Below, piece by piece: positions 4,397 through 28,200 of a DNA stretch of 31,055 nt. The notes under the pieces are model-generated. The model had not been told where the DNA came from and did no database searches. It saw only the letters and a list, made by a program, of their open reading frames with translations. A program made the position numbers and the translations under genes. Origin of the DNA: a virus. Position 1 is the stretch's first letter; the number at the start of each line of letters is the position of its first letter. The stretch spans positions 6,965-38,019 of IMG/VR virus record IMGVR_UViG_3300029319_000158; one strand, written 5' to 3'.

Positions 4397-6639
4397 CTGA
4401 GGGAATGATGGGTCGCGGGTCTGACACTCGCATGTATAACCCTCGTTCAGAATCCTCTCATATGTTCCGTGAAAATCACGAAGAAGAGGGCACGCGCACT
4501 GGTTATGAAGATCCTCGTGACCTTGATAATCGTGCTGATAAACGTCAGGCTAAGAAAGAAAAGGAAGAAAAAGAAGAGAAGAAAATAAAACATATCAAAG
4601 TTCGTCGTCACCATCTCCATTCTGGGCAAGATGAAATGGACGAAGAAGAGTCACCCATGGAAAATTCTGAATACAAACCTCGTGGTTCTGTAGATAATCC
4701 GTCCAAGCAAACAATACCATCTGGTGCTGGTGGGTTTCTAACCAGTCTTGCTACACAAGCAAAAGGTCCGGGCGCTGCTGCTGGACAGTTGGTTGCAATG
4801 AGTGAACCGATGTTAGATGCTTGGTCTGAGTTGTTGAAACAAGATAGGCGTATCCCCGATGTAACTGATGAGTATGATTACTATAACTACTATGATACTT
4901 ATGCAGATGAAGACCGACCTTTAGCACATATGCCTCATTCTACTCTTGATGCAAGATTAGCAGAAAGGGGTGAGGTTGGTGAATATGCTCATGATAACGA
5001 TGATGAATTTGATGAGTTAATACATGAGTATCTTATGAGAGACAGGGAAAATCGAAGTGGGGTTGACCGTGAAGGTTTTCCACAAGAGTTTCAAGACATT
5101 CACACAAGCGAACCAATGGAAAACGCTTGGTCTGAGTTGTTGAAATCTAAACCAAAGGGACTGCCTCAAGGGGTTCCTCACGCTTCTGATACAGGAAAAA
5201 GTAAGAGAGAAAGGGATAGAGACACACAATCTGATATTGCTCGAAGAAAAAGAAATCCAGTAAAAGTTATGCGAAACCCTGTTCAATCAGCGTTAACAAC
5301 TGGGCAGCATAATAGAATGCAAACCGCGTTGGAATTATTGGAGCAATATGGCTCTGCTGACAGAATACCTCCAAAAATTTTAGCCCAACGTCTTCCTGAA
5401 TTTCTAAGAACTACAGCCACTAGAAAAAGAAAACCCTCTGTAGGTAGGAAACCCTTTGAGGGGGAGAGAGTTTATGGCGGTGAAGGGATAAAACAAAGAG
5501 ATGCTCAAAAGTATATTAGACCATTAGCACCTGCACAAAGAGAGGCAATTACTGGTGGAGAGTACCACGATAGTCTGCTCGATGCATTGAATACTGGACA
5601 ATTTATGTCTGAACTTTCGACATTTGCTGAGAACGCACCTGCTTATGATAGAAGGATAGAGGAAGCAAGGAGAGCATCACTTCCCCCTGAACCTACTCTT
5701 GAGCCTCAACCTGTTCAAAAAGATAAGATTGAACCCGGTCCTTTACCAGATACCTTCTTTGTTAATGGAGACTTTATGGATGCTCGCCAGTTCGCTGCAT
5801 ATCAGGCTCAAAAGAATCAACAGCAAAAAAGCGAACCGATGGACCATGCTTGGTCTGAGTTGTTAAAGTCCAAGAAAGAAGAAAGAAAAAGAAAGAAGGA
5901 AGAAGGTGCAAAGTTTCGACCATCTACAGGTGCATTTGAGCGACCAAGGGGTGGATTCGGTGGTAGGCCAGCAACTCCTGCTCGTGCTAAAATCATTAGT
6001 CGAAATCTCCCCGTTGGGAGACACACTGGATTAAACTTAGCAGATCTTGCTGTTGAGATGTCTCACCGTGGTGTCGCATCCAAGCAACCAATGTCCAAAG
6101 ATCCTCAACAATATCGTGACTACATGGCTACCCAAGAGGCTCAAAAGCGTGTTGGGAATGTTCGCACTCCTTATGCTGAACATCGTCGTTTTGGACGCCC
6201 ATCAAGGCGTGCTAAATCTGGTATGCCCCGTGTACCTCGACCTCGTCTTCATCCAGTTCGTGCTCCAAGCATAGTGCCACCTAAGATGAAAATGCCTCGT
6301 CTTCGCAAACCTAAGATGCCGGGCATGGTGACAATGAGTGAAGATGAAATAACTCAATCAGATGTTCTAAAATCTGCAAGTGATGCTGGATATCTCCGTA
6401 TTCTAGTGCGTGAATTACGTGAAGCACTTCGTGAAACTCGTGATAAAGATAGAAAGCGAAAGGGAATGGGAACCCCTGATACTTCGGGCGCTGCCTCTAA
6501 TCTCCCCAACCATCCATCCAATTCTCATGCTCAAACGAGCACTCCACAAGGGGGGACAGAAAACGAGGAAGCAGAGGCTAAAATGTATGGGGCTGACCCA
6601 GCGCAAGTCATCAACGCTCGTGGGAGCAATAAGTCATGA
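4393..6639 (+). CDS. Large low-complexity protein with three EPMxxAWSELLK repeats
   Basis: This 748-residue protein is mostly charged and probably disordered. Residues 50-75 are Lys/Glu-rich, and there is an acidic Tyr/Asp patch near residue 160 (DEYDYYNYYDTYADED). The clearest feature is the peptide SEPMxxAWSELLK, found three times at residues 137-149, 239-251 and 480-492. A partial match, ESPMENSEY, lies near residue 80. The AW core also occurs in four other proteins here. The C-terminal quarter is basic (PPKMKMPRLRKPKMPGM) and may contact DNA. The gene sits between small proteins and a second giant with short overlaps on both sides. Repeated short motifs in a disordered chain suggest a multivalent scaffold or tether. 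I know no homologue. Confidence 0.6.
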   Translation: MTEGMMGRGSDTRMYNPRSESSHMFRENHEEEGTRTGYEDPRDLDNRADKRQAKKEKEEKEEKKIKHIKVRRHHLHSGQDEMDEEESPMENSEYKPRGSVDNPSKQTIPSGAGGFLTSLATQAKGPGAAAGQLVAMSEPMLDAWSELLKQDRRIPDVTDEYDYYNYYDTYADEDRPLAHMPHSTLDARLAERGEVGEYAHDNDDEFDELIHEYLMRDRENRSGVDREGFPQEFQDIHTSEPMENAWSELLKSKPKGLPQGVPHASDTGKSKRERDRDTQSDIARRKRNPVKVMRNPVQSALTTGQHNRMQTALELLEQYGSADRIPPKILAQRLPEFLRTTATRKRKPSVGRKPFEGERVYGGEGIKQRDAQKYIRPLAPAQREAITGGEYHDSLLDALNTGQFMSELSTFAENAPAYDRRIEEARRASLPPEPTLEPQPVQKDKIEPGPLPDTFFVNGDFMDARQFAAYQAQKNQQQKSEPMDHAWSELLKSKKEERKRKKEEGAKFRPSTGAFERPRGGFGGRPATPARAKIISRNLPVGRHTGLNLADLAVEMSHRGVASKQPMSKDPQQYRDYMATQEAQKRVGNVRTPYAEHRRFGRPSRRAKSGMPRVPRPRLHPVRAPSIVPPKMKMPRLRKPKMPGMVTMSEDEITQSDVLKSASDAGYLRILVRELREALRETRDKDRKRKGMGTPDTSGAASNLPNHPSNSHAQTSTPQGGTENEEAEAKMYGADPAQVINARGSNKS
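4801..4839 (+). repeat. AWSELLK motif, copy 1
   Basis: Encodes SEPMLDAWSELLK. The core GCTTGGTCTGAGTTGTT (17 bases) is identical in all three copies inside this gene. Confidence 0.85.
5107..5145 (+). repeat. AWSELLK motif, copy 2
   Basis: Encodes SEPMENAWSELLK, followed by SK. It shares the 17-base core with copies 1 and 3; the two variable residues are EN here. Confidence 0.85.
5830..5868 (+). repeat. AWSELLK motif, copy 3
   Basis: Encodes SEPMDHAWSELLK, followed by SKKEERKRKKEE. The same 17-base core is present, then Leu and Lys codons change (TTA AAG), showing the peptide is kept despite synonymous drift. Confidence 0.85.
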
Positions 6640-8966
6640 TAATCGCTTTTCCTTACGTTCGCCCACGTCCTCAATTTATCTTAAGAAAAGGACATGGCAT
6701 CATAAGAAAGGGCGATGGAGTTTACGCACATTTACCGGGTCAAGGTTCAGGACATCTTCTTCGCGCTCCACCTCCTGAAGCATTTAACGCCGACCCAAAT
6801 GAGCCTGACGCACCTGCATTTGCACACATGGGTTCAGCGAAACCTCATCCAAAATCAGAGGCTGAGGGACACAATGGTGTTGGTGAATTACTCAACATGA
6901 CTCGAAGAGAAGGGGATTACGGGCATACTGAATTTGTCCATCAATTTGACGGTAAAGAGTACCTACATCATCATGGAATAGATGCAATTATCAAAGGCGT
7001 AGGAGAACTTATGAAAAAATTAGGTCTTTCCGAGGCTGAGGCTAAGGACCCTAAAACAGGAGCGAAGGCGCGTGTGCAACAAGCAATTGACAAATTCAAT
7101 GCTCGTGAAGATTTAGATCCTAGACATCAATTACCAAATGTGGATAGCGTAGAGTGGAGAAAATTAGTTGCTGCTCCTTATCATAAAAATTATGCAAACC
7201 AAACAAAAACCAAAGATGGAAGGCAAGTAACTCTATTTACAAACACGGGGTTTGAGAATAGTCCCGCCGGTCTTCATATTGAATCCTATGCAAATCATTT
7301 TCACAAAGAGTTGGGTGAAGTTCTAGCAGACGCTTTAAAATTAAACGGATATCTTCCAGCAAGCGCACCAGAGTGGGTACAATATCCTTACATGGCTCCC
7401 GGTAAAAAAAATAATCTCCTTCATCCCTCTCTTTATCGTTTTAAGGGAGAGCAATTCGGTGAAGGGGTTGGTCCGGGTGGTACAACAGCGAGAGCGCATG
7501 AAGGCTCTTTCCCCGAAGGTGCTCAAATGGAAGCATCCGTGAAAGATGTTTATTCTTGGGAAATGCTCCATCATTTACCTAATGCATTCTTTTACAAAAA
7601 AATGGGAAAGGGTCGCCCTCCTTCTAGGGCAATAGAGTTGGCTAAACAACATATGTTAGAAGCGTTTAGCCGTTTCGATCCTGATAAGATTCCTGATATT
7701 CAAGTACCAATCAATACAACCCTTACTCAAGAACAACAACAAGGCACTGCTTCTGGGAATTATTCTATGATGAGTCTTAAACAAGTTCTTTCAAGTCCTG
7801 AATTACTTCACAATATGGTTAGTGAATTAGCGGCAACTCCTGCGTTTACCTTTATGTTTGGAAGAATTGATGCCAAGAACTCTGCTGGCGCGGATTTGTA
7901 TCAATATCTAATGGATGAATATGGGTCTCCCGAAGAAGGACTGGATTACGCACAAATGAGTAAACACGTAACTCATGGCCCACATGTTGTGTTACCTGAT
8001 GGTACTAAATTACACGAACACTCTCATGCAAATGCGGCTAAATTGATGACTAAGTTGATGCTTGGTGGTATTGATGAAGACGGTATTGCTAATATTCGTA
8101 ATGCTATTCTTGAAAATCCAGCAGATTTCCGTCTTAATCCTGAATCGGGAGATGAAAATTTAGAGTATCGACGCACTGCTCTACAAGGTCTTGCTGATTT
8201 AATAGCCGGTGGTTTTGGACATCAGGTTCAACGAACATTACCCGAAGATATTCCCACTCAACCTTTGTATTCACGAAACGTCGCTGGATATTCAGAAACA
8301 CCAGTTCACAACCTTCCTTCTCACATGTTCCATCATACTGATGAACATATGCTCCCAACAAGAATGAAGGGAAGTGGAGAGCCTATTCGTGAAGAAGGCG
8401 CTCCTGCTGTACAACCACCTGAGTCACCTGCTCTTCAAACACAGACTCCACGTCAAGGTAAAGTTGCTGTGCAACGACCGTTTACACCTCAAAGTGAAGG
8501 TTTAATGCAAGAAAGAGCACAAATAGGACAACTTGGAACTCCTGAGTTACGTGAGGTCATGGGACGAATGGGCGTTCCCATTCCTGCTGGCACTGGTCCT
8601 ACTCTTACACCACAGGAACAGCAATTCCAACAGACGTTTGGAGACCCGCGCCAACAATTGCTTTCGCAGTATCTTCGTAGTTTAGATGAGTCATTACCAA
8701 TCGGCGATCGTTTGATGAAGGCAATGGAAGAAATGCAAAAAGACGAGGCACGTATGGATACTTCGATAATCAAGCATATTCCAGTAAGAAGTGTACATAT
8801 CAATGATGACAACGGTGTAAATGTTATTGCAAAGAAATTAGGTCTTACATCTCTTGATGTTAGAACCATTGCTCACAGCACTGGAGATTGGGGTAGAGTT
8901 TCTAAGCAACTCAACGTGCCTCTTGATGTAATTAAAGTAGTCAAAGTAAGTATGGGGGGAATCTAA
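6636..8966 (+). CDS. Large putative virion/assembly protein, unknown family
   Basis: This 776-residue protein overlaps the previous gene by four bases (ATGA). It has no family I can name. The first 100 residues are His/Gly/Pro-rich (GHGIIRKGDGVYAHLPGQG). Residues about 110-400 look like a folded alpha/beta region, with VYSWEMLHHLPNAFFYKKMG near residue 310 resembling the SWEEVH motif found elsewhere in the window. The stretch around residues 580-690 is Pro/Gln-rich and probably disordered. The C-terminal 60 residues look like a compact helical domain of HTH type (VIAKKLGLTSLDVRTIAHSTG). Style and His-rich composition resemble the 1968-residue protein further down. It is followed directly by the 353-residue gene. 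It is probably a minor or internal head protein, by position only. Confidence 0.55.
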   Translation: MIIAFPYVRPRPQFILRKGHGIIRKGDGVYAHLPGQGSGHLLRAPPPEAFNADPNEPDAPAFAHMGSAKPHPKSEAEGHNGVGELLNMTRREGDYGHTEFVHQFDGKEYLHHHGIDAIIKGVGELMKKLGLSEAEAKDPKTGAKARVQQAIDKFNAREDLDPRHQLPNVDSVEWRKLVAAPYHKNYANQTKTKDGRQVTLFTNTGFENSPAGLHIESYANHFHKELGEVLADALKLNGYLPASAPEWVQYPYMAPGKKNNLLHPSLYRFKGEQFGEGVGPGGTTARAHEGSFPEGAQMEASVKDVYSWEMLHHLPNAFFYKKMGKGRPPSRAIELAKQHMLEAFSRFDPDKIPDIQVPINTTLTQEQQQGTASGNYSMMSLKQVLSSPELLHNMVSELAATPAFTFMFGRIDAKNSAGADLYQYLMDEYGSPEEGLDYAQMSKHVTHGPHVVLPDGTKLHEHSHANAAKLMTKLMLGGIDEDGIANIRNAILENPADFRLNPESGDENLEYRRTALQGLADLIAGGFGHQVQRTLPEDIPTQPLYSRNVAGYSETPVHNLPSHMFHHTDEHMLPTRMKGSGEPIREEGAPAVQPPESPALQTQTPRQGKVAVQRPFTPQSEGLMQERAQIGQLGTPELREVMGRMGVPIPAGTGPTLTPQEQQFQQTFGDPRQQLLSQYLRSLDESLPIGDRLMKAMEEMQKDEARMDTSIIKHIPVRSVHINDDNGVNVIAKKLGLTSLDVRTIAHSTGDWGRVSKQLNVPLDVIKVVKVSMGGI

Positions 8967-10027
8967 TGAAACCTGTACTCGTGTTAAAACAGGCAGAGAC
9001 AACACCTATTGCAATGCAAATGGCCTCTGGGGCGCAAAATCCCATGGGTAGTATGAATCCGCTTTTGTTTGTTGATTTCCCCGATAGAACCCGTGACCCA
9101 ATAGGTGGTAGAACTCTTCTCGCCCCTCAAGGAGCACAATATCGAAGTCAGTATGATATTCGTGAGGACACACCGTTTAGCGATGTTACTGCTGCTGAAA
9201 GTCAAAGACAAATTAGAGCAATGGGGCATGACCCGAAAGAATTAGCAAGAATGTCGTCTGAAGAATTAGAGGGTTTCCTTGAGCGCAGGGCTACAAGAGA
9301 AGCAGCCAAACAGTCAGCACAAGAAGTTCTTGCTCGTGAAATGGCACAAAGTGGTGGAAACACACAGGCTGCATTTGAAGAAGCATTACGAAGAACTGGT
9401 CTTGGTGCGCGTGCTGGTAGAATAGGGGCTGGTGCGCTTGCTGGTCTTAGTGGCTTAATGGCGCTTCAACGAGCAAATGAATCAGGGACTGACCTATTCT
9501 CTGCTCTCGGTGGCGCGGGTGCTCAAGGCTATTCCACATATCGTTATGCTAGTCCATTTCTACAAAGCCTCGGAATGCGAGGTGCTGCAAAAATAAGTCC
9601 ATCCGTCGGGGAAACCTCTCTTCCTCCGACCTCCATATCTTCGGCGGATGAGACACCATTTGCTTATCAGGAAGGTGAAAGTAAATTTACACCTGCTGAT
9701 TCACAGGCCAGTTTCACAGCCCCCACGATTGCTAAACCTACTGTGGCAGAACCAACTGTTCAAACAAAACTACCCGGAGCACCTCCTACACCCCTTTCAG
9801 AGAAAACATATGCAGATATGACTGGAACTGAACTTGGTGAAATGAATAGTGATAGAGATAGTATGACAGGGCAATCTTCTATTGATGAAGAAAACCAAGA
9901 GAAGTTTCAATCAGCACTTGAAGAATATGATAGAATGAATACTGTTCGAGATGATTTTGATAAAATATACGATAGTTATAATAAAATGAATAAAGGCAAC
10001 AGGAGGTCTTTCGTTGGTGTCCGATGA
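8966..10027 (+). CDS. Unknown 353-residue protein upstream of terminase
   Basis: The start overlaps the previous stop by one base (TAATG). The N-terminus MKPVLVLKQAE resembles the short basic-hydrophobic starts of other proteins in this block. Residues 70-150 are charged and helical (ARMSSEELEGFLERRATREA). A Gly/Ala-rich hydrophobic stretch (AGRIGAGALAGLSGLMAL, near residue 155) could be membrane-active or a packed helix. Residues 210-285 are Pro/Thr-rich and low complexity, and the end is acidic and helical. The 3' end overlaps the terminase start and contains its ribosome binding site AGGAGG at 10001-10006. No function can be assigned; a minor virion protein is plausible. Confidence 0.55.
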   Translation: MKPVLVLKQAETTPIAMQMASGAQNPMGSMNPLLFVDFPDRTRDPIGGRTLLAPQGAQYRSQYDIREDTPFSDVTAAESQRQIRAMGHDPKELARMSSEELEGFLERRATREAAKQSAQEVLAREMAQSGGNTQAAFEEALRRTGLGARAGRIGAGALAGLSGLMALQRANESGTDLFSALGGAGAQGYSTYRYASPFLQSLGMRGAAKISPSVGETSLPPTSISSADETPFAYQEGESKFTPADSQASFTAPTIAKPTVAEPTVQTKLPGAPPTPLSEKTYADMTGTELGEMNSDRDSMTGQSSIDEENQEKFQSALEEYDRMNTVRDDFDKIYDSYNKMNKGNRRSFVGVR

Positions 10028-11501
10028 TAATGAACAGACCAAGCAACTTATCATCGAGATGGATGGTAAGATGGCTTCTAGATCGTTCCGTTTCTTTTTT
10101 GAGTCAATTTTGGGATTCCATTATTCTCATCATCATCAACTATGGGATGATGGTCTAACGAATCATCGTTATTATTGCGTAAAGGCATCTCGTGACCATG
10201 GCAAATCCACATTGTTCATGGCATATGCATTGTGGATTGGTGCATTCAAGCCCGGCACTCACATCATGGTTTTCTCTCACTCTCTTGAACAGACACTAGA
10301 ACATATGCGTTTCATTCGTAACTGTATAGATTCAACCCCATGCCTTCGTCACTTACGTCCGACAGGAAAACCATGGGCGAAATCTTACTTTGAGTTTACC
10401 AACGGAAGTCGTATCATGGCTAAGTCGGTTGGTGGAGCAACTCGTGGTTTCCATCCTGACGTGGTTGTATGTGATGATATTTTGTGGGGTACAACTGGTG
10501 GAGAGTTACAGCGTGCTGCTGACTGGTTCTATGGTGTACTGCTCCCTGTTCTCCACCATACTGCTCGTCTAATGATGGTCGGTACACCTTTCTCGTACAA
10601 CGATTTGTATGCAGAATTGGAACAGAAAGATGCGTTTGTGGTCGAAACATATCCCGCGATTAACGCCGAGGGTGTTGCTCTTTGGCCTGAGCGTTGGGAT
10701 TTAGAAGCGTTAGAAGAAAGAAGAAGAGCCATGCCAGCGATACAGTTCACTCGTGAATATTTGTGTGAACCAATTCACGACGTAGCGAGTATGTTCCCTT
10801 CGGATATTCTTGAAAAAGCCCGTGACCCTAATCTTGTTTTGTTGGAACGAGCAGAAAATGAATTCAATGAAGACGGAGAAGAAATTGGAATCTTTGGGCA
10901 ACACTTCATCGGTTGGGATACAGCAATCGCATCAGATAAAAATGCTGACTTTACAGCGATGGTCACATTACGTATACCACCGGGAGAGAATGAGAAACAA
11001 ATCGTAAGTGTTGTGCATGAGAGAGGTATGTCTTCTATGGCACAGAAACGTCAGATTATTATTCTCAATAACAAGTTCCAACCTGACCTCATTGAACTTG
11101 AGGGTAACAACTTCCAGCGAATGTTTGCTATGGAGTTACAAGAGATTAGAGATGATATTCCTATACGCACGTTCATGACCACGCGCACACGTAAAGAGAG
11201 TTTATTCATGTCTTTGCTTCTCGCTTTTGAACAAGGACAAATAAAAACGCCATACGGAGACGAAAGAAGTAAGGCTTTTACTCACAAATTAGAAGAAGAA
11301 TTGAATCGTTTTGGAATGCAAAAGAATGGAAGACTTGAAAGTGTGGGTACTCACGACGACTTAGCAATGGCCCTCGCTCTCGCCAACTGGGGAACTAAAG
11401 AATTCAAGGGGTCAATAATGATGTTAGACGATTATCTTCCCGGATTTGATAATTGGTTAAGTGGGAAACCACGAAAAAGTGATGGGTGGATGATACCATG
11501 A
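10014..11501 (+). CDS. terL: Terminase large subunit (DNA-packaging ATPase and nuclease)
   Basis: This 495-residue protein is the packaging motor that feeds DNA through the portal and cuts it. The Walker A variant SRDHGKS is at residues 59-65, and the Walker B VVVCDD at 150-155 ends in Asp-Asp instead of the usual Asp-Glu. The coupling motif is VGTPF, about residue 195. The RNase H-like nuclease has D302 (GWDTA), E361/E363 (IELEGNN) and D448/D449 (THDDLA). Length matches typical TerL. The start is TTG at 10014 or GTG at 10017, both well spaced from AGGAGGT at 10001-10007. The gene overlaps its neighbours on both sides. Candidate TerS lies at 3306-3989, unusually far upstream. Confidence 0.93.
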   Translation: MVSDDNEQTKQLIIEMDGKMASRSFRFFFESILGFHYSHHHQLWDDGLTNHRYYCVKASRDHGKSTLFMAYALWIGAFKPGTHIMVFSHSLEQTLEHMRFIRNCIDSTPCLRHLRPTGKPWAKSYFEFTNGSRIMAKSVGGATRGFHPDVVVCDDILWGTTGGELQRAADWFYGVLLPVLHHTARLMMVGTPFSYNDLYAELEQKDAFVVETYPAINAEGVALWPERWDLEALEERRRAMPAIQFTREYLCEPIHDVASMFPSDILEKARDPNLVLLERAENEFNEDGEEIGIFGQHFIGWDTAIASDKNADFTAMVTLRIPPGENEKQIVSVVHERGMSSMAQKRQIIILNNKFQPDLIELEGNNFQRMFAMELQEIRDDIPIRTFMTTRTRKESLFMSLLLAFEQGQIKTPYGDERSKAFTHKLEEELNRFGMQKNGRLESVGTHDDLAMALALANWGTKEFKGSIMMLDDYLPGFDNWLSGKPRKSDGWMIP

Positions 11502-11986
11502 AGGAAAAGAAGTTAGGTGGTAAAAAACACGGCATGGTTGTTGTTATCTCTCTTGGTAAACCGGGAGGTAAGAAACCTGAGCGAGAAGCCGATCCTGATA
11601 CAAAAAAGAAATCAGACTATGAAGAAGCGATAGAGGCAATTATCAAAGGAGAGCCTGTTGATTTCTGTGACTGTTGTAGTCCCAGTGAACTTGCTTGGGC
11701 TGTTATGAAAGCAAAAAAGAAGTCCAAGCCATTTCATGGATACAATCCAAAGCGCCATCATAGGAAAGGTGGATTAAGTGCAAAAGGACGTGCTAAGTTC
11801 AAGCGTGAGACAGGTGCTAACTTGAAACCTCCTGTAACCACCAAACCAAGTAAACTCAAACCCGGCTCTAAGAAAGCCAAACGTCGTAAATCATTCTGTG
11901 CTCGTATGGGTGGTATGAAAGGACCAACATCAAAGAAAGGTAAATTGACCCCCAAGGGTGCAGCGCTAAAGAGGTGGAACTGTTGA
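11498..11986 (+). CDS. Small basic Cys-containing phage protein (SFCARMGGMKG type) with AW motif
   Basis: A roughly 162-residue, Lys-rich protein. The C-terminal half has a pattern I recognise from marine phage proteins: GLSAKGRAKFKRETGANLKP, then RRKSFCARMGGMKGP and a final ALKRWNC. The N-terminal part has a CDCC cluster followed by SELAWAVMKAKKK, one copy of the AW motif at 11693-11698. The start is taken at the ATG overlapping the terminase stop (ATGA); an in-frame ATG at 11486 would add four residues. Strong positive charge suggests DNA or nucleic-acid contact, possibly inside the head. Biochemical function is unknown for the family as far as I know. Confidence 0.7.
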   Translation: MKEKKLGGKKHGMVVVISLGKPGGKKPEREADPDTKKKSDYEEAIEAIIKGEPVDFCDCCSPSELAWAVMKAKKKSKPFHGYNPKRHHRKGGLSAKGRAKFKRETGANLKPPVTTKPSKLKPGSKKAKRRKSFCARMGGMKGPTSKKGKLTPKGAALKRWNC

Positions 11987-12171
11987 ATTGTGATTGTGAA
12001 CATTGTGGACCCATGACATTGGCTTGGGATTCGTTAGAAAAGAAATTATGTCCAGAAGGAAAGGCTGCTGCTAAAAGAAAATTCAAAGTTTACCCTTCTG
12101 CTTATGCGAATGGTTGGGCTGTACAATACTGCCGTGGTAAGTTTAGAAAGAAGGGGAAGAAAAAGAAATGA
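11983..12171 (+). CDS. Small basic Cys protein (KRKFKVYPSAYANG type) with AW motif
   Basis: About 62 residues. A first half with CDCEHCG and MTLAWDSLEKK (AW copy at 12022-12027) leads into LCPEGKAAAKRKFKVYPSAY and ANGWAVQYCRG, a pattern seen in small proteins encoded near phage terminases. The tail is poly-Lys-like. GAGGTG at 11971-11976, six bases upstream, supports a TTG start at 11983 that overlaps the previous stop (TTGA); GTG at 11974 is the other option but falls inside the ribosome binding site. It is probably a nucleic-acid-binding or virion protein. The role is not known. Confidence 0.65.
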   Translation: MNCDCEHCGPMTLAWDSLEKKLCPEGKAAAKRKFKVYPSAYANGWAVQYCRGKFRKKGKKKK

Positions 12172-12515
12172 TGGGTTTTGAGAGGGGCAATGTTCCATGT
12201 TCTGTATGTGGTGTAGATAACCCCACTGAAAGATGTGGCGCAACCCATCATTCTCATAATGCAGGTCAGTGTATATATTATGGTGCATCGCAAAGAGAAG
12301 TCCATAAAATGGATGCTCTTGAAGCGGCATGGACCGTAATAAAAGCCAAAAAAGACGCACCAAATTATCGCAAGGCTACAGGGTCAGAAAAGTGTGGTAA
12401 TTGTAAAGCATGGGATTCGTCAGCAACTGATGACCCTATGACTGGATATTGTGAGTGGTATGATTTTAATTGTCGTGCCGATCATGTTTGTGATGCATGG
12501 ATGGGGAAAAAATGA
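12168..12515 (+). CDS. Cys-rich metal-binding protein with AW motif
   Basis: This 115-residue protein has two cysteine clusters around an AW motif. The N-terminal cluster is CSVCGVDNPTERCGATHHSH. The centre reads MDALEAAWTVIKAKKD (AW copy at 12327-12332). The C-terminal cluster CGNCKAWDSS through GYCEWYDFNCRADHVCDAW has the C-x2-C, C, C spacing of small HiPIP-like or zinc domains found in phages. Metal type cannot be told from sequence. The ATG overlaps the upstream stop; a second ATG follows at 12171. It is the third consecutive small gene after the terminase to carry the AW motif. Confidence 0.65.
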   Translation: MMGFERGNVPCSVCGVDNPTERCGATHHSHNAGQCIYYGASQREVHKMDALEAAWTVIKAKKDAPNYRKATGSEKCGNCKAWDSSATDDPMTGYCEWYDFNCRADHVCDAWMGKK

Positions 12516-13136: not shown

Positions 13137-14351
13137 ATGTGGGGGTCAGCGCTTATTGAGCAAGCCTCAGAGTTACCCACACAACAGGTGGTTAAATCAC
13201 ATCCTATGTTGAAGCAATTATTCAACAACGGAGATGGATGGTTTGAGTCTCGCATGGGTTGCGGAGCAGATGAACTTGTAAAGCGCCTTCGTAAAATGCG
13301 CCGTTCCATGAAAGATGATAGAAGTGATATTGATGCTTTTATAGATGATATACGGATGATAAAGGCACTTGAAACTGAGGCAACAATCATGAGTCTTTCT
13401 TGGGGTCCTAAATATGCAGATGTCATGAAGCAACTGGGGTTAAGTGATAGAAGTCTCAAAAGTCTACGTAAGTTTGGGGAGAGTCGATCTGTATCTCTTC
13501 AACAGGCTTGTAATCTTTGGAATGAGGCAGATGCTGCTCTAAAAATGCTTGATGAGTTTGAAGATGTTTGGGGAGAAGAAGAGCAACGAGCATGGGCTAG
13601 TGCTATGAGTACTAGAAGTGATGCGAGAAAGATGTGGAAAAACACATTACATCAAATCGACGCACTAAGTAAATCCGATCAAGATTATCTACGATTTGCG
13701 GCAGAGCAACTTCTTGAAAAAGGCCCCATGCGTTCAACTGATATTAGAAGAAATCTACATGACGCTGGATTAATGAAGAAGTCATTTACAGACAAAAAAT
13801 TATCTTCCTTACTAAATCTATATGGAGAAGAAGTGGACATCATCAAAGGTGCTTCACGCGGTACTTATGTTGTCCTCGACTCTCAAGGACTTGTTCTTAA
13901 AGATCCATGGGCTTACAGTGCTGGGTTCCTTGACGCTGATGGATATATTACGATTACCGAGAGAGGGGAGCCGAGGGCTGGTTTTATCGCTACTGGAGAT
14001 AGGGGCCGTCTGCATTGTGAAAATCTTCATAAGACTTTAGAATGTGGAGTATTACAATTAGACAATAAAGTGTACAAAGATTCTCAACGAAGTCAACACC
14101 GTTTGCAATTTTATTCAAAAGCGGACATCCGCAAACTCCTAACGGGGGTGCTACCTCACATACGTATGAAAGATGTCCAAGCCAAGGCGGTTTTGGCATT
14201 CATTGATGAAAAAGATATACAAAGAAAAGAAGAGATGAAGCGCCTTGTCCGATATGAAAATTGGAAGGATAATACCAAGAAGACTCAAGAACTTTTACAA
14301 GGATGGGGTATAGATATGGATACAATTGGTAAATACGCGGAGGGTCTATGA
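13137..14351 (+). CDS. Helical/winged-helix protein fused to a LAGLIDADG endonuclease domain
   Basis: This 404-residue protein has three parts. Residues 1-190 are helical and unknown, and include VVKSHPMLKQLF (KSHP at 20-23). Residues about 190-247 look like a winged helix (EKGPMRSTDIRRNLHDAGLM). From residue about 255 there is a single LAGLIDADG-type motif, AGFLDADGYI at 262-271. Asp268 is the predicted metal-binding catalytic residue. It is followed by the usual helix-strand pattern down to about residue 365. Single-motif proteins of this family act as homodimers. Two GAGGTCA repeats (13114-13120, 13126-13132) lie before the start, the second serving as ribosome binding site. The gene is in frame and integrated between the terminase cassette and portal, so it may be a freestanding homing nuclease or a domain recruited for packaging. 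Confidence 0.75.
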   Translation: MWGSALIEQASELPTQQVVKSHPMLKQLFNNGDGWFESRMGCGADELVKRLRKMRRSMKDDRSDIDAFIDDIRMIKALETEATIMSLSWGPKYADVMKQLGLSDRSLKSLRKFGESRSVSLQQACNLWNEADAALKMLDEFEDVWGEEEQRAWASAMSTRSDARKMWKNTLHQIDALSKSDQDYLRFAAEQLLEKGPMRSTDIRRNLHDAGLMKKSFTDKKLSSLLNLYGEEVDIIKGASRGTYVVLDSQGLVLKDPWAYSAGFLDADGYITITERGEPRAGFIATGDRGRLHCENLHKTLECGVLQLDNKVYKDSQRSQHRLQFYSKADIRKLLTGVLPHIRMKDVQAKAVLAFIDEKDIQRKEEMKRLVRYENWKDNTKKTQELLQGWGIDMDTIGKYAEGL

Positions 14352-16087
14352 TGGCAGAAGATAATCAAAGTCCTGTTTCCCGATTTCTTTCGGCTCTCGC
14401 TAGTCCGTTTAGAAGAAGAACTACACCTGAACCACAAATGCCTCTGTATACCACAGGTATTCAGGAACCTGTTCTAGCACAGGGTATTACTTTACCTGCT
14501 TTGTATGCGGTATCTAATGAAAATTTAATTTTACGAACAGTAATTTCTAAATTAATTCAAGAAGTATTTAGACGTGGGTACTACTGGGAAAAGAAGTTTA
14601 GGAAGAAGTGTATGGATTGTGGTGAAGAGTTTCAACACGATGTAGACATGTGTAAGACATGTGGTGGTGAAGTTCGCGATCCTGATTCTGAGCAAATTAT
14701 CTATGGACGTTGGCTTCTTGAAGAGAGGAACGCCATGGAGCAAACATTCCTCCAAGTTCTCTATGAAATCGAGCGTGACTTGAACATTGTAGATGATGCG
14801 TTTTTAATTCTCATAAAGGAGTACTATGTTGACCCTGAATCTGGTGACATACAATTTTATCGTGTGAAACAAGTAATCAGAGGCGACCCTATCTTTATGC
14901 GAATTATCGCTGACAAGCGTGGTGTTCGTGGTGGTCGTTACAAGATTTGTAAGATTCATCGTGACCAAGTAGCATATCCGGGTCAAGAACCTGCGTGTAC
15001 AGTATGTGGCTCTCGTTTGGTAGATGCACATTACGTGAATATGTCTGGTTCAGGAAAGAATCAGTATTATACCAAGGGTGAAGTTATTCACATAAGTAAG
15101 TATAACCCATCTAAGTTGTATGGTACATCCCCTGTAAACACGATGTGGCGACAAGCCATGACTCTTACGGCGATGGATAATTATATTTATACTGCGTACC
15201 AAAAACGTCGTATTCCGAAGGGTATAGTTTCTGTAACTACTGATAACCTTGAATCCATGAAGTCCTTTTGGAAGTCTGTGGATGAAAAGATGGAGAGAGA
15301 TCCTCATTACATTCCAAAGGTCGGTATTGAGTCACAAAGTGGTCGTGGTGGTGTAAACTGGGTTAAGTTCATGGATACATTAGAAGAAATGCAATATATC
15401 GCTGTACGTGATGAAATAAGAAACCGCATTGCTGCTTTCTATGGTGTATCTTCAATCTTCATGATTGATAACGGTAAATCGGGTGGGCTAAATAATGAGG
15501 GTCTACAGATTCTTGTTACAAATCGAGCGGTTGAGTTTGGACAGAAAGTTTACACTGAAACTTTGTTCCCACTTTTGCTGAAAGAAATGAACATTACCGA
15601 TTGGAAAATAACTCTATATCCAAATGAAGAGGAAGATGAAATTACTCGTCTTCGACGTGATGAAATGGAAGTTAACCTTGCACAACGTATGTCTATGCTC
15701 GGTTATCAACCTGAATTACTTGAAGAAGGGGATAGGGACATTCGGTTCGTTTATCGAAAGCAAGAAGAGGGTCAGCAAGGTATGCCTCCGGGTGGCGGTA
15801 TGCCTCCGGGTATGCCTATGGGTGGTATGCCTCCCGGCGCTATGCAAATGAGGGGAAGTATGCCTCCGGGTATGCCTCCGGGCGGGGGTATGCCAGTCCC
15901 ACCTTCACAACCCGGTGGTGAAGGCATGGGCATGAGAACACCTCGTAGTCCAGCAAGACCTCAACAACGTGGCTCACCCGGCGCAGGATCTCCAGTCACA
16001 AGTGTTCAACAACGTGGCCCTGCTCCTTCTATACAAGAAACAAATACTAACGCATTACAAAATGCTAGAAGGCCGCGAGGTGCGTAA
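14348..16087 (+). CDS. Portal protein with two inserted zinc-ribbon candidates
   Basis: At 579 residues this is portal size, placed after the terminase as expected. The fold is suggested by GEVIHISKYNPSKLYGTSPV, MTLTAMDNYIYTAYQKRRIP, and the late crown-like region RNRIAAFYGVSSIFMIDNGK. These match the layout of HK97/SPP1-type portals, the ring through which DNA is pumped. Unusually, there are two metal-site candidates in the wing region: C88-x2-C91 with C102-x2-C105, and C201-x2-H204 with C217-x2-C220. Residues 478-516 are Met/Pro/Gly repeats and the last 100 residues look disordered. The start overlaps the preceding stop (ATGATG). The 3' end is followed by a short gap. Confidence 0.85.
   Translation: MMAEDNQSPVSRFLSALASPFRRRTTPEPQMPLYTTGIQEPVLAQGITLPALYAVSNENLILRTVISKLIQEVFRRGYYWEKKFRKKCMDCGEEFQHDVDMCKTCGGEVRDPDSEQIIYGRWLLEERNAMEQTFLQVLYEIERDLNIVDDAFLILIKEYYVDPESGDIQFYRVKQVIRGDPIFMRIIADKRGVRGGRYKICKIHRDQVAYPGQEPACTVCGSRLVDAHYVNMSGSGKNQYYTKGEVIHISKYNPSKLYGTSPVNTMWRQAMTLTAMDNYIYTAYQKRRIPKGIVSVTTDNLESMKSFWKSVDEKMERDPHYIPKVGIESQSGRGGVNWVKFMDTLEEMQYIAVRDEIRNRIAAFYGVSSIFMIDNGKSGGLNNEGLQILVTNRAVEFGQKVYTETLFPLLLKEMNITDWKITLYPNEEEDEITRLRRDEMEVNLAQRMSMLGYQPELLEEGDRDIRFVYRKQEEGQQGMPPGGGMPPGMPMGGMPPGAMQMRGSMPPGMPPGGGMPVPPSQPGGEGMGMRTPRSPARPQQRGSPGAGSPVTSVQQRGPAPSIQETNTNALQNARRPRGA
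15779..15894 (+). repeat. GMPPG-coding short tandem repeats in the portal tail
   Basis: Imperfect repeats of the unit GGTATGCCTCCGGG and shorter variants encode GMPPG, GMPMGG and similar in the portal C-terminus. Units vary synonymously (CCTCCGGG, CCTCCCGG), so the peptide seems kept. Replication slippage could change the length between related viruses. Confidence 0.8.
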
Positions 16088-16128
16088 CCTCTTTTAACAA
16101 GACTATGGTACGAGAGGCAGGGATAACC

Positions 16129-16485: not shown

Positions 16486-16490
16486 ATATC

Positions 16491-16820: not shown

Positions 16821-16822
16821 CA

Positions 16823-17665: not shown

Positions 17666-20600
17666 GTGGAAGCAGACGCATTTGACGAATACCTTCGTAC
17701 TCGGCATAATTTGTTGAAGTCAGTTGTTGACGGATTGGATTATGATAATGCTGTTGCTGACCATTTTTTCTCTTCCTTAAATCTTCATCGTCAAGGCGAA
17801 GATGACTTCGTAAAGTCATGGGAAGACAATGTTTGTGACATGATTCTTAGAGGCGAATGGACACAAGGAATGTCTGATATCATCACTAAAAATGTAGATA
17901 AATTATCTTCACTAAACAGACAAAGTGAGATAATGCATGATTTAGACCATCCTTGGCGTGGTAGAATTAGAGATCTTCCCTCTGCCTTAGATATGTTTTC
18001 AGAAGAGATTGAGTTAGGTCCTCCGGGGCCTGATGGTTACTACCCAGTGCATCACCCACATGACAATATGCATCATGCAATGAAGAGAATGAATTCTGTA
18101 ACTGGTCGTCCTTATTGGGTAGAGGCATTGAGAAGTTTTTACTTACCTAGTACGCCGGGTGGAATGAGTCAATCTCAACTGCATGAAATAGTAGAAAGAG
18201 CACAGGATAAATATGACAAAGCGGAAAGGAATCCAATTGTCATAGGAACTGGATTCAAACCTTCAAAAAATGAACTCAAGGAAATAAAAGATGAATTTAG
18301 TGCGATGTTAAGTGAAAGAGATGAAAGTGGAGAGCCTTCACAAAACGCTCTTAGATTACAATTTGAAATTCAAGGGATTATGGATAAAGATAAAAATATA
18401 AATCAAGCACAGGCTCTTGACCAACTTGTAAACACAGAGGCTACTGAAAGAAATATATCTTCATCCGACACAAGACACAGTCATTTAGGACCTCACAATG
18501 ACGTTCATTCTCATACACTTTACATAAGAGATTTTGAGAGATGGAAGGCTGAAAATCAGGAATTAGTAAGTGAAATAAAATCATCTTTACCTCCACCACG
18601 AGACGAGTTTGAATTACAAAAAAGACACTTTGAGGCTCGTGCTGATGATTGGCTTAGTGATGATGCTCATGATGAGCCTTACACTGTAAATACAGATGGA
18701 GAAGAATCTGATGATATTTATGCTAATCCAGAAACATGGGGGGAGGATAAACCTGCTTCTGTATCTTACCAATTAAGAAAGCGTTTGAATTACAACGGCT
18801 ATAGACACGGAATGGAATGGCTTACGCCTCTTGAAAGAGCAAAAGTTGCCGACCATTTACATCAACATGGAACAGGGAAAGGCGATAAACAAATGATAGA
18901 TCTTGGTGATGGATTCAAAACATCTATTGGGAGAATAAATCGTGACTATGCACAAAGAGTCGCTCATGAAATTCATCATTATATGAGAGGGCAAAATTTT
19001 CACGGCCCTAATCTAAACAATCATGTAGAGGGCACTCATGACCATCCTCAAGCAGAAAAAGCAGCAGATGAGACAGCATACTTGGATGCACTAAAAGATG
19101 TAAAACACTCTTCTGGTTCATCGATGTACGATTTTATTCTTGGTGAATTGAATAATAATCTTGGAATAGAACAACTATCTGAACAGACTTTCCAAACTGC
19201 TATGGACGATTGGACGGCGGATAGAATGGAGGATTTGGATTATGAAAACAACCCACCGCCTATCGCAGATGATTATAGAGTGAAGGAGTTACCTCATATA
19301 CCAAATATAAAGCGTGGATTCAAAACAAAAGTGCAAAGACGAATGGAAAGAGAAGGAGTGTCTTATCAACAAGCATTAATGGAGGAACTTAGAGAATCTC
19401 ATAATGTAATCGATAGCGAGACCAATGAGGTAAGTGAAGGCCCTCATAAATTAACTCGTAGTAAGTTGCTCGATCTTGTTGGATTAAATGAAGAACTAGG
19501 CGCAAAAGATCCAACTGAACTATATCATTCTGATGAACCTATGATTACAGCAGATGAAATGATGCTAATTGATGAAATGGCGAAAGAAAAAGGAGATAAG
19601 GCTAGATTACACAAACTCATTAGGGGGTCTCATCGAAGACATAGCACTGGATTTAACGGACCACGTAAGGAAGATTTACCAGAGCGAGAGCGTAATTTGT
19701 TTATTGAAAATAAGGAAACAGGCGAACTTATGGGTCTTGGTTTTCCCTTTGCTACTGAGTTTCAAATCAACGGAGGACATGGAAGATCGATTAGTTCTCT
19801 CATTCATTTCTTACACTCACCTTTACCAAAAATGGGGGAAGATGAAGAATCTATTATTGGAACTGAATTGGAGGACTCTTTACAATTTACCGTGAACCCA
19901 ATGACTGAGGGTTTGTATGGAATGTTTTCTGCGCTTGTTCATGATAAAATATTACCGAGAGATGTAAGACCCGGAGAAATTATTTCTGGTTTTGATGTTT
20001 CTACACCCAGAGGATTTAGGGAAGGAAAAGCGACTAGACCTCCGCTTAACCCAAAAAATAATTACACAGACCACGCTACTTCTTTTGCCGCTCCTTCCGC
20101 CATGGACGTTAAGGGTAAAGGTGAAGAAGAAAGGAAAGAGATGTTCCAAGGCAATTCAAATAAATTTGCAAATTTAATAAGTAGCGCTACGGGGCTTGGC
20201 TCAAATCCAAAATCTACCTCATCGGCAAGAACAGTCTTACCTAAAAGCAATCAAAAATCAAGAGTCGCTAGACGACACGCCACTATTTTTGGAAGAATGA
20301 GACCACCACATGACCCTCAAGAAGCCATGAGATTGACCATGGCTCAACTAAGAACTGGTCGCCATCCGTTTGGACATATAGTAGATGCACCTCGTGATTT
20401 CTTTGGATATCAGGGTAGAGTAAAACCGGATGAAGGTGAGGACTTGGTTGATTTCTCAGAGAAAACTATGTTTGGTGGTTTTGACGCACCCATGGGAGAA
20501 ACTAATTATGACGATCTTCACTTACATCTTGAAGAAACAGTTAGTCTAAAACAAGAATTAGAAGAGCGTTTAGAAGAACAGAAGCAAACGGGTGAGGTTG

Positions 20601-23616: not shown

Positions 23617-25014
23617 GTGCTACGACAACCACAGCAATCTGGTATTGAACTGCTCAAGGCGGGGTCTGACCTCGTCGTTGCAGGATATGCCTCTGTGGAA
23701 CTTGTAGACAAACAAGGAGATTTAATAACGCGTTCGGCTTTGAAAGATGCATTCAAGAAATTCATGACCGATCCAAAATTTAGAAATGTACAATTAGCGC
23801 ATTCAAATATACAAGTAGGAGAAGTAATTCCAAATTATACGGACAGCAACGGGAGAATGTGGAAAAGCGAAGTAGATGACGCCGGAATGTTCGTAGTAGT
23901 ACAATTAAGAAATGATATAGAAAAAGCGAGGGAGGTTGCAGCAGAAGTACGAAAAGGAAATCTTCGTGGATTCAGCATAGGTGGACAAGCATTCAAGCGA
24001 GTAAACAAAAGCGATAATACACACGGAAGTTACCAAGAAATATCAAAACTCGAACTACATGAAGTAACAATCTGCGAAAAAGGAATTAATCCAGAAGCAA
24101 CATTTAGAATCTTAAAAGAAGACAAAAGAAATGAAAAACAGGTGAAAAAAATGACCGACGATGTAATGGAACAAATGAGTAGCGTTCTTGAACGCTTAGA
24201 AGGCCGACTTGATTCAATGGAGAAAGGTGAAATGCCACCCGGACTCAAAGAACATATGAAAGAAAAGAAATCTAAAGATGAATCTAAAGATGATGAATCC
24301 GAAGAGAAAATGTACGGCGGAGAACACAAGATGGAAGGAAAGATGAAGGATGAGGACAAGGACGATAAAGAAAAGTCCGAGTACTCTGATGTTATCACCG
24401 CTGAGTACCTTGACTGGATGGAGAACACTCTAAAATCCAATGGTATAGACACTGATGGTGCTCGTGCTCATTTCGATGATGTAGCAAAAGCAAACCTTGG
24501 TTCTACTCCTGAATCAATCGGAGACGGTGCTAACTACTTCGCTGGACAAGTAAAGGGTCGAGCACAAGAAGGTGGCTCCCCATCTACTAACGCTATTGCA
24601 CGAGCAGGATTGTCTCGTGGCGGTGGCAAAGTTGAGAAGAGTGATTTCATCACTGCTGATGTTGTTGACTCATCTCAATTAGAAGCAGCATACGAAGTAT
24701 ACAAGGCTGCTCGCGCAGAACAGGCTTACAAGAGTGAGTTAGAGAAGCACTTTGAAGAGCGCTTCCAATCAGAAACTCAGGCTGAACTACAGAAGGCTGC
24801 TGCTGCTAACTTTGATGCACGCGGTCCTCTTGATGAAGTCATGAAGGCTCTTGATGCTCTTAATGACCGAATTGACAATCTCTCCACTGATGCTGGTACA
24901 CCAATCGCTAAGTCCGTGTCCTCGGATGTAGCAGTACCATCTACAGCAGATTTAGCAAGTATGTCTTGGGAAGAAGTCCATCAACTTGCTGGGAGCGTCT
25001 TTAGGGACGAATAA
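23617..25014 (+). CDS. Prohead maturation protease fused to scaffold-like C-terminal region
   Basis: The N-terminal half (residues about 15-165) is an HK97/XkdF-like prohead protease: VVAGYASVELVDKQGDLIT, H62 in LAHSNIQ, S120 in LRGFSIGG, and E149 in ELHEVTICEKGINPEATF. These enzymes trim scaffold and capsid during head maturation. Residues about 170-260 are a charged Lys/Glu/Asp region. Residues 260-465 are helical and end with MSWEEVHQLAGSVFRDE, a scaffold-type tail shared with the 16491 gene. One chain thus joins protease and scaffold. ELLKAGSD at residues 11-18 resembles ELLKAD in the capsid protein. GTG is used as start after GGGGGA. The catalytic domain (about 23760-24160) is A-rich and T-poor compared with the rest. 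Confidence 0.85.
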   Translation: MLRQPQQSGIELLKAGSDLVVAGYASVELVDKQGDLITRSALKDAFKKFMTDPKFRNVQLAHSNIQVGEVIPNYTDSNGRMWKSEVDDAGMFVVVQLRNDIEKAREVAAEVRKGNLRGFSIGGQAFKRVNKSDNTHGSYQEISKLELHEVTICEKGINPEATFRILKEDKRNEKQVKKMTDDVMEQMSSVLERLEGRLDSMEKGEMPPGLKEHMKEKKSKDESKDDESEEKMYGGEHKMEGKMKDEDKDDKEKSEYSDVITAEYLDWMENTLKSNGIDTDGARAHFDDVAKANLGSTPESIGDGANYFAGQVKGRAQEGGSPSTNAIARAGLSRGGGKVEKSDFITADVVDSSQLEAAYEVYKAARAEQAYKSELEKHFEERFQSETQAELQKAAAANFDARGPLDEVMKALDALNDRIDNLSTDAGTPIAKSVSSDVAVPSTADLASMSWEEVHQLAGSVFRDE

Positions 25015-25030: not shown

Positions 25031-25039
25031 AAGGAGATG
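25031..25039 (+). promoter_or_regulatory. Strong ribosome binding site that decides the capsid start
   Basis: AAGGAGATG lies six bases before the ATG at 25046. An ATG inside this element (25037) is in frame but is part of the binding site, so 25046 is the start. Nearly the same element precedes the next gene. Confidence 0.75.
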
Positions 25040-25045
25040 AAAAAT

Positions 25046-26215
25046 ATGGCAAGAAACTACGTACGAACAGTCACAGATATGGAGCGCTACTACTATGGCG
25101 CTGGAAATGCAATGGGTTACTCCTACACTGGCAGTGAGTTGCTAAAGGCTGATGCCCCAATGCTATCCACAACTGCTGGAACTTACCAAGCGATCTACGG
25201 TCGCAAAGTTTGGTCTCAGTTGAACCAAGAATTCAATGCATTCAGTATCCTACCAAAGCGCCCATGGGATCGCAGTGGTTGGAGAGTTATTACAGAGAAG
25301 CCTAACGCTGGTGTATTACATGGTGGAATTGCAGAGAACGGAACACTTCCTGAAACTGTAAAGCCTACCTTCCAGCACGTCGCTGCAAAGCCTAAGACTA
25401 TCGCTCACTCATTCGATATGAGCGAAGTTGCTATCTTCCTTGCTGACAAGGATGATGGTTTAGGAGATATCCGCTCTGTCCTTAAGGAAGAAATGGGTAA
25501 ACACCATGCTGAGATGGTCAACAAGATGCTTCTTGTAGATACTTCTACAGTAGCAGGTAACAACTTTGAATCACTTGACAGAATTACTGCTGGAGACGGT
25601 GCTGGAACAGGTCTTACTGGTCTAAAAACCACTGGTGGTAATGAACACGTTGATGCTGCGGCAGACCTAGACATTTACAGCATTGACCGAAGTGCTAACT
25701 CATGGTCCGCAGCAGAAGTTAACTGTGCGGCTGATGCAGCAGCAGGAAGTCGTAGAACTCTAAGTCTTGACCACTTGGACACTATCTTCCAGCAAGTATG
25801 GGAGCGTGGTGGTAATCCAAAGGTTATCCTAACTGGATATGATACTCTAATGCGTCTACAGCAGTTGCTACAAGCACAGCAGAGATTCATGGAAGAAAAG
25901 AGAGTTACTCCAACCTACAACGGTGTAAAGGGTGTACCCGGTATCGAAGCAGGTTTCATTGTTGCAACATACAATGGAGTACCAATTATTCCATCCAAAG
26001 ACGTAGAAAAAGACGGTCTAAGTCGTATGTATCTCTTAGACACTGATTATATGTACTTCTCCACGGCAATTCCGACTCAGTATTTCGAGTCTGGTATCGA
26101 GACTGGCGATCCGTTCGCAATCAACAGACTCGGTCAGGAAGGTCTATACCGAACCATGGGTGAAGTATGGACAACTTTCTTCGGAGCACAAGCAAGTATT
26201 AGGGACCTAGCCTGA
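25046..26215 (+). CDS. Major capsid protein, HK97 fold
   Basis: This 389-residue protein directly follows the protease-scaffold gene. N-terminal helices (RTVTDMERYYYGAGNAMG) and SELLKADAPMLS (K34-A35) may be the region removed or rearranged at maturation. The main body has typical HK97-type features: a long loop (RSGWRVITEKPNAGVLHGGI), helix LDHLDTIFQQVWERGGNPKV with ILTGYDTLMRLQQLL, then VATYNGVPIIPSKDV and LLDTDYMYFSTAIPTQYFES, the last part matching the late strands of such capsids. The strong AAGGAGATG site and biased use of preferred codons suit a highly made protein. A small probable decoration gene follows with a near-identical leader. Confidence 0.88.
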   Translation: MARNYVRTVTDMERYYYGAGNAMGYSYTGSELLKADAPMLSTTAGTYQAIYGRKVWSQLNQEFNAFSILPKRPWDRSGWRVITEKPNAGVLHGGIAENGTLPETVKPTFQHVAAKPKTIAHSFDMSEVAIFLADKDDGLGDIRSVLKEEMGKHHAEMVNKMLLVDTSTVAGNNFESLDRITAGDGAGTGLTGLKTTGGNEHVDAAADLDIYSIDRSANSWSAAEVNCAADAAAGSRRTLSLDHLDTIFQQVWERGGNPKVILTGYDTLMRLQQLLQAQQRFMEEKRVTPTYNGVKGVPGIEAGFIVATYNGVPIIPSKDVEKDGLSRMYLLDTDYMYFSTAIPTQYFESGIETGDPFAINRLGQEGLYRTMGEVWTTFFGAQASIRDLA

Positions 26216-26657: not shown

Positions 26658-26668
26658 GGTGTTTAACA

Positions 26669-27043: not shown

Positions 27044-27051
27044 GTGATTAA

Positions 27052-27366: not shown

Positions 27367-27379
27367 GGGCGGTGATTAG

Positions 27380-27553
27380 ATGGCAAAGTCAGTAACAATT
27401 CTTGGTCCTTACCCACCGAAGGATTTCGCTGATACCACAGCAAGAACTGCAATCGCTACGGCGATTAGTGATGCTATTGCGAGTAACACTTGCGTATCCG
27501 CTGACCCTCATTGCATTCTTGGTAATATCTATATTATTGTAACAACCAGTTGA
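27380..27553 (+). CDS. Small 57-residue protein, function unknown
   Basis: The translation begins MAKSVTILGPYPPKDFADTT and ends NIYIIVTTS. GGTGATTA just before the ATG repeats the leader of the previous gene, and the frame fills a gap that would otherwise be empty. There are two cysteines (SNTCVSADPHC). The middle is an Ala-rich helix (ARTAIATAISDAIAS). It is probably a real small virion or assembly gene, but no family is recognised. Confidence 0.6.
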   Translation: MAKSVTILGPYPPKDFADTTARTAIATAISDAIASNTCVSADPHCILGNIYIIVTTS

Positions 27554-27568
27554 GAGTGAGGGGAATGT

Positions 27569-27874
27569 ATGGGATTCGATCTGCAAACGATTGACCTCGC
27601 TGATATAGAGAGAATGCAAAAACAAGGCATCCGTTCTGATGTTTCTCTTGACTTAACTGATTTAGTTGAGACAGATGAAAAGAATCCTCTCAAGGGTATT
27701 ACTCAACAACAACGTAATCGAAATAGTGAGGCTGCTGATATTCTGAATATTGGCTCTGGTACTCGTTGCAAGCATTGTGGTATGCTTCACTTCCTGTGGC
27801 GAGAAACATGTGGTGCATGTAAGCGTCCTATGGAATATAACCTCGGCCACCGAGATGAGGGGGCAAGAGAATGA
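27569..27874 (+). CDS. Small zinc-ribbon protein
   Basis: This 101-residue protein has a polar N-terminal part (GFDLQTIDLADIERMQKQGI). Its C-terminal zinc ribbon has C-x2-C and C-x2-C pairs (RCKHCGMLHFLWRETCGACK). The pattern resembles the zinc ribbons inserted in the portal. GAGTGAGGGG upstream supports the ATG. It overlaps the next gene by four bases. A virion connector or DNA-contact role is possible; there is no proof. Confidence 0.6.
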   Translation: MGFDLQTIDLADIERMQKQGIRSDVSLDLTDLVETDEKNPLKGITQQQRNRNSEAADILNIGSGTRCKHCGMLHFLWRETCGACKRPMEYNLGHRDEGARE

Positions 27875-28200
27875 GGGCTTTTGATTTGGCATGGTCTATC
27901 TTGAAACAATACATTCCACCTTCTGGAGCAGAGCGTATGTCACCCCCACATGCTTACGGCGGTAACGTAAATCCTGATGATAATCGACTTTTCCGAAACC
28001 CTGATGCATTGAGAGCAGAGGAACTCATAGGCGCTATGACTCGTCAGACAATTCCAGTTCATGGTCCTTTACCTCCACATATACAACGAAGGGATGGAAG
28101 GTATACACAAGAGCCACAAAGAAAGACACTTTCCAAATATCCTGACCCACTTTACTATACTGCGGAACATGCTCCTGATTACGAAGAAGGAGGGAGGTAG
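27871..28200 (+). CDS. Small protein with N-terminal AW motif
   Basis: A 109-residue protein whose very first residues are MRAFDLAWSILKQYIPPSGA, the AW motif (at 27889-27894) placed at the N-terminus. The rest is Pro/Arg-rich and probably flexible (PHAYGGNVNPDDN, LPPHIQRRDGRY). It starts with an ATGA overlap and ends with GGAGG directly before the connector gene start. The terminal position of the motif is what would be expected of a docking tag. No known family. Confidence 0.6.
   Translation: MRAFDLAWSILKQYIPPSGAERMSPPHAYGGNVNPDDNRLFRNPDALRAEELIGAMTRQTIPVHGPLPPHIQRRDGRYTQEPQRKTLSKYPDPLYYTAEHAPDYEEGGR

Follow-up and report, generated by a model that had tools for sequence, protein, structure and literature searches.

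Why would otherwise unrelated proteins, encoded around the head genes of a single virus, carry the same short peptide? This question is raised by a 31-kb stretch of viral DNA (hereafter the window; G000:6965-38019 of a 38-kb IMG/VR record), which contains a tailed-virus head block made up of terminase, portal, S78 protease and HK97-fold capsid protein. The head genes named next, the tagged genes with their tag copies and the predicted cleavage sites in protease and capsid protein lie on its plus (+) strand. The terminase large subunit (10014..11501; PHROG 38, Terminase_6C) serves as the lineage marker. The block further includes the portal protein (14348..16087), an S78 prohead protease (23617..25014) whose C-terminal part is scaffold-like and rich in conserved [LIVM]xK[ASG] sites, and a major capsid protein with the HVTV-1 type of HK97 fold (25037..26215). 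Among annotated capsid proteins, those of the haloarchaeal viruses HVTV-1/HCTV come closest, with 32-33% identity.

The combination of a tailed virus, a large terminase, a portal, an S78 protease and an archaeal-virus-type HK97-fold capsid protein is of the magrovirus type. Magrovirus-type relatives are ~100 kb in size with a separate early block, and a Cpn60/TCP1-family chaperonin was present in all seven relatives tested for it. From the literature on such viruses (PMC10160649), we infer that the host belongs to the Poseidoniales. Other features of the region include a P-loop protein (287-1000; GAPMVGKTTL), which is small-GTPase-like and conserved in relatives and has no Pfam match, and a 1968-aa protein between portal and protease (17666-23572), one stretch of which resembles ATP-dependent DNA ligase below the Pfam cut-off (1.1e-4). 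A short N run, giving three X in translation, immediately precedes the window start (G000 near 6955-6965; L210).

Tag copies in the window and their recurrence in relatives

The pattern AW..[LIVM].?K has seven matches in five proteins of the window, and all seven AWxxxxK copies reported in the original prediction lie exactly where it had placed them. Three belong to a 748-aa protein (4393..6639), in which the motif tryptophans are residues 144, 246 and 487: SEPMLDAWSELLK (4801..4839), SEPMENAWSELLK (5107..5145) and SEPMDHAWSELLK (5830..5868). In a 166-aa protein (11486-11986), the tag SPSELAWAVMK (11678..11710; W at residue 71) stands directly before a DUF6321-type domain; in a 65-aa protein (11974-12171), GPMTLAWDSLEK (12007..12042; W at residue 18) is joined to a short cysteine domain resembling DUF5872; and in a 115-aa protein (12168-12515), DALEAAWTVIK (12312..12344; W at residue 55) precedes a CxxC-type domain. 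The last copy, MRAFDLAWSILK (27871..27906; W at residue 8), is the N-terminal tag of a 109-aa protein (27871-28200), and relatives L052, L080 and L073 likewise have N-terminal tags in this region behind the capsid gene. Outside the window, the rest of the record (G000:1-6964) contributes five further copies in four more proteins: MSAFDLAWTLLK, MSAFNDAWMLLK, MSAFDTAWMVLK, MNAINFAWSILK and the C-terminal DAIDAAWAVLKSV. The five tagged head-block proteins first described are therefore real, but they understate the extent of the tag, which is carried by nine proteins in the record and by hundreds across relatives. Many of these genes lie in variable arrays upstream of the head block.

Two further strings deserve mention. 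YERAWGWVKT, in an 84-94-aa protein at the window start, was set aside as probably not a tag, since it lies inside a conserved protein and in the window T replaces the A. A tag-like candidate, AAEYIMAWESLEK, occurs in a giant protein of some relatives.

When each window protein was shuffled, a mean of 0.21 and a maximum of three motif copies were obtained, and 0 of 2000 shuffles reached the observed seven. The bare dipeptide AW is only mildly raised in these proteins (13 vs 7.7 expected). Since inspection of these very sequences had prompted the choice of motif, independent tests on other genomes were needed. Relatives were retrieved by the capsid protein, the 748-aa protein and the terminase, and pieces of six ~100-kb relatives were read. 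To these six we applied a position matrix (threshold 12) whose training set consisted of N-terminal tags of other contigs; it matched 72 times among 329 late-strand proteins, as against three times among 305 early-strand proteins, and shuffled proteins of either strand gave one match each; among the matrix matches, the W can be replaced by F, M or Y. The comparison with shuffled proteins and the motif search of related genomes, both proposed together with the original prediction, thus came out in its favor, and the motif recurs on many different proteins.

Across all IMG/VR contigs, at least 118 stretches match a DNA pattern for A-F-[DE]-x-A-W-x-x-L-K, where ~9 would be expected by our own estimate. 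Among the 23 least similar of the matching contigs, 15 carry the same terminase lineage (46-71% identity); the other eight have no terminase, and their matches were taken as chance. As far as seen, the tag belongs to one viral lineage, which comprises at least two groups with terminases >70% and ~47% identical to that of the window. A made-up consensus tag protein retrieved only chance matches from GenBank phages. Among the open papers searched, none contains the motif strings in a virus context, the sole match being an unrelated T-cell receptor paper, and a magrovirus survey makes no mention of any motif.

Anatomy of the tag and diversity of its carriers

The tag spans ~12 residues and reads roughly M-T-A-F-D-x-A-W-x-L-L-K. 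Over all copies the motif is [AP]-[FM]-[DE]-x-A-[W/F/M/Y]-x-[LVI]-L-K. The N-terminal consensus is M-[TS]-[AP]-F-[DE]-x-A-W-x-[LVI]-L-K-[AM], and internal copies read SEPM[DE]xAWSxLLK or TGEPMDIAFRLLK. By the cut-offs used, 333 copies are N-terminal, 203 internal and 15 C-terminal, and the W lies 7-8 residues past the nearest upstream Met in 287 of ~340 N-terminal tags. The residue pattern is of a helix type: positions -4, -1, 0 and +3 would make up one face of an amphipathic helix, and S/T at -6 together with D/E at -3 may form a capping box.

At the codon level, identical tag residues in different genes of this record share codons at a rate of 0.39, close to the 0.35 expected, which bears out the earlier remark that codons differ among copies in different genes and indicates that it is the peptide that is under selection. 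Codon sharing is higher in three gene arrays of distant relatives (0.52-0.60 vs 0.38-0.41), and some copies there have therefore spread by duplication. The three tags of the 748-aa protein are near-identical in DNA, reflecting internal duplication. This protein is conserved and largely disordered (AlphaFold2 mean pLDDT 53.9). The model shows tags 2 and 3 as helical and tag 1 as coil; a fold search with it is meaningless because most of it is disordered. Among its orthologues, 42 of 43 contain the tag, in one to four copies each, and the first copy falls at residue ~131-149 in nearly all.

The carriers of the tag are highly diverse. After tag masking, 506 tagged proteins fall into 215 families, including 149 singletons, in agreement with the original claim that the carriers are unrelated outside the motif. 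The tag immediately precedes small domains that other marine phages also possess (DUF5872 and DUF6321). Most cyanophage and pelagiphage matches to the 166-aa protein begin no earlier than residue 73, right after the tag; one extends over its full length at 31%. Tagged genes are more variable than other late genes, 14% of them vs 48% having homologues in every one of the five other genomes, and tagged proteins are longer and, by composition, more disorder-prone than other late proteins. Most tagged genes belong to the late strand and are found 4-19 kb upstream of the terminase, mainly as operon-like runs immediately ahead of the head block, and a few lie far from it (46-47 kb from terL in G003, 69 kb in G004 and 68 kb in G008). 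In the distant group, up to 12 tagged genes are consecutive, several with 4-base overlaps. In several relatives an untagged HMG-CoA-lyase-like protein (EVGPRDGLQ) is encoded amid the tagged genes (L210 3176-4006; L276 5115-6032).

What do the tagged proteins do? Pfam and PHROG scans of all of them gave few matches, and most of the cargo is without a recognisable domain. Pfam recognised no enzyme in the window's own record, and the enzyme signatures come mainly from the distant group, with terminases ~47% identical, rather than from the window. In that group, a set of proteins has ...LLKMPYHGT...IM..GL.P behind the tag; when an alignment of 19 of them was compared with the PDB, all 24 profile matches belonged to the ADP-ribosyltransferase (ART) superfamily, each of them weak (E 0.008-0.8). 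The AlphaFold2 model of one member (L252:9809-10285; pLDDT 80.6) has as its best PDB matches the Tpt1/KptA RNA 2'-phosphotransferases (Foldseek E 2.5e-4), superposes on Tpt1 with a VIA Z of 9.9 at 3.3 A over 96 residues, and ranks other ART enzymes behind. On the basis of this model and the profile matches, the protein and its relatives are predicted to have an ART-superfamily fold. In addition, one tagged protein exceeds the GNAT cut-off (PF00583, 26.1 bits vs 20.7) and one is a NUDIX protein (4e-22). Among N-tagged proteins, 34 of 343 (10%, from 16 families) contain HExxH, vs 74 of 3239 untagged ones (2%), and shuffling gives 3.6. ParB-N-like and kinase-like tagged proteins are suggested by motif only. 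In L252, L224 and L276, different HExxH and ART-like proteins adjoin within one array, which suggests that whole effector classes have expanded.

Docking, cleavage and other readings of the tag

A docking or cargo-loading function, as the original prediction proposed, is the best-supported reading, given the unrelated carriers, the restriction to late genes, the amphipathic pattern, the varied position of the tag, its multiple copies in a conserved disordered protein (42/43 orthologues) and the enzyme-like cargo. We consider it likely that magrovirus-like viruses use the peptide as a modular capsid-loading (cargo) signal and that the cargo enters the host cell together with the DNA. The tag would form a short amphipathic helix with an N-cap S/T, a capping D/E, a hydrophobic face of F/M-A-W-L and a closing K. 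This helix would dock on one partner inside the assembling head and thereby draw a variable set of otherwise unrelated proteins into it. The disordered 748-aa protein, with its one to four tags, would provide a multivalent core or tether, and the S78 protease may later remove N-terminal tags behind L-K. ART-fold, GNAT, NUDIX and HExxH proteins would then be among the cargo carried into the cell. A more far-reaching picture, which in our judgment is about equally apt to prove right or wrong, is that of a large variable set of injected effectors, drawn from hundreds of orphan families and directed to the virion by a single 12-residue helix that, in contrast to known capsid-targeting sequences, can be placed anywhere in the protein and is repeated in a disordered multivalent scaffold protein.

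Could the motif instead be nothing but a recognition or cleavage site of the S78 prohead protease (two hydrophobic residues and K, cut before a small residue), with A-W reflecting protease specificity? We regard this as unlikely, even though the head proteins do contain similar sites. A conserved IELLK|A before the protease domain (23644..23661) is a predicted self-processing site, and proteases of relatives keep (L/I/V)(L/I)K|(G/A/S) ahead of the domain. An invariant SELLK|A or S at residue 37 of the capsid protein (25133..25150) is a predicted maturation site, comparable to the cut of the HK97 capsid protein gp5 between K103 and S104 (TFNK|SLG at 103/104). The C-terminal part of the protease has ~10 conserved [LIVM]xK[ASG]-like sites across relatives, consistent with a scaffold that is cut into pieces, and the [LIVM]xK[ASG] sites kept in several head proteins (23617-25014, 25037-26215, 16105-17653 and 17666-23572) look like an S78 cleavage consensus. 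Within the tag, the hydrophobic residue tracks the K and not the W (W+2 is hydrophobic in 94% of tags with K at W+4 but in 16% of those with K at W+5), a hint that the tag end may be a cleavage site, and the residue after the K is A in 32% of N-terminal tags vs 7% in the background.

The L-K|A of the tag is similar to the predicted S78 sites, but what comes next to the K is not always a small residue, and in W+5-type tags it is charged in 53%. The maturation site that the original prediction offered as an alternative has partial support from the lysine after a hydrophobic pair, as in capsid SELLK|A. The capsid and protease sites lack F-x-x-A-W, the conservation of which cleavage would leave unexplained, and in C-terminal tags (AWSVLKQSW-end and AWAVLKSV-end) a cut after K would remove only two or three residues. 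Because tags are also internal and C-terminal, removal by cleavage is not their general logic. As a separate observation, in most relatives the protease (24958-25011) and a 112-aa protein (16764-16793) terminate in a second common peptide, MSWEE(V/I)Hx(L/M)A, which may be a capsid-binding scaffold helix.

It is rather improbable that the tag docks proteins on a host partner, or on a late viral hub other than the capsid. Short helical motifs common to unrelated proteins do typify hub binding, but the tag is near-absent from the early strand, most tags belong to the head block or to genes just ahead of it, and a conserved tagged member sits among the head genes beside the terminase. Far less probable is that the tagged proteins have diverged from within a single family or have an entire domain in common, the latter a finding that would have spoken against the original prediction. 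Single-linkage clusters unite some disordered members, but 215 families remain after masking, similarity outside the tag was not found, the tag can be N-terminal, internal or C-terminal, and the attached domains differ (DUF5872, DUF6321, ART fold, GNAT, NUDIX and HExxH). Finally, it is barely conceivable that the copies represent a DNA element, whether mobile or repeated, or a feature of translation start in place of a selected peptide: the raised codon sharing in distant arrays would fit a DNA element, but in this record synonymous codons have diverged while the peptide is kept, and tags also occur internally and at C-termini.

Relation to known loading systems

As a proposed capsid-loading signal, the tag can be compared with the capsid-targeting sequence (CTS) of phage T4. 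The T4 internal proteins are highly diverse and have the CTS as their only common part (PMC3012670); these proteins and Alt carry propeptides of 10-20 residues that are removed by the prohead protease (PMC5694885), and T4 has ADP-ribosyltransferases (PMC10468400). Both systems place a short, mostly N-terminal peptide on diverse and variable proteins (IPI-III and Alt in T4), both include a prohead protease, and both have ADP-ribosyltransferases in the cargo, namely Alt in T4 and the predicted ART-fold proteins here. They differ in that the motif here is AF[DE]xAWxLLK, that it is also internal and C-terminal and is present in one to four copies in the core protein, and that there are often 5-15 tagged genes per locus. 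In addition, the putative cut here follows K, as in the S78/HK97 type, and not E, as with T4-type proteases, and the different protease type suggests an origin independent of the T4 CTS.

In SPN3US and phiKZ, where cleavage sites are at E, N-terminal segments are likewise thought to steer ejection proteins into the prohead and are cut by the protease (PMC5694885). In contrast to the tag, these propeptides are mostly >100 residues long and have no common 12-residue motif. The HVTV-1-type archaeal tailed viruses (Druskaviridae) are similar in their capsid protein, at the 32-33% identity given above, but no convincing tag was found in HVTV-1 (the 50-kb half with the structural genes) or vir519; there were three weak regex matches, with F for W only. 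In its way of working, the tag is also similar to the Rubisco-binding motif, a short motif that is found on unrelated pyrenoid proteins, is repeated in a disordered linker and targets one assembly. That motif belongs to a cellular organelle and has another sequence, and no evolutionary relation is claimed.

For marine archaeal viruses, the tag provides a sequence handle on hundreds of orphan genes. Wherever a late protein bears the tag, one can predict that it is virion cargo and likely acts on the host during entry, and the question of orphan function becomes directly testable. The tag also suggests that a lineage of archaeal viruses evolved T4-style loading of injected enzymes, including the ART fold, independently, and it would provide HK97-type capsids with a loading signal that is short and portable.
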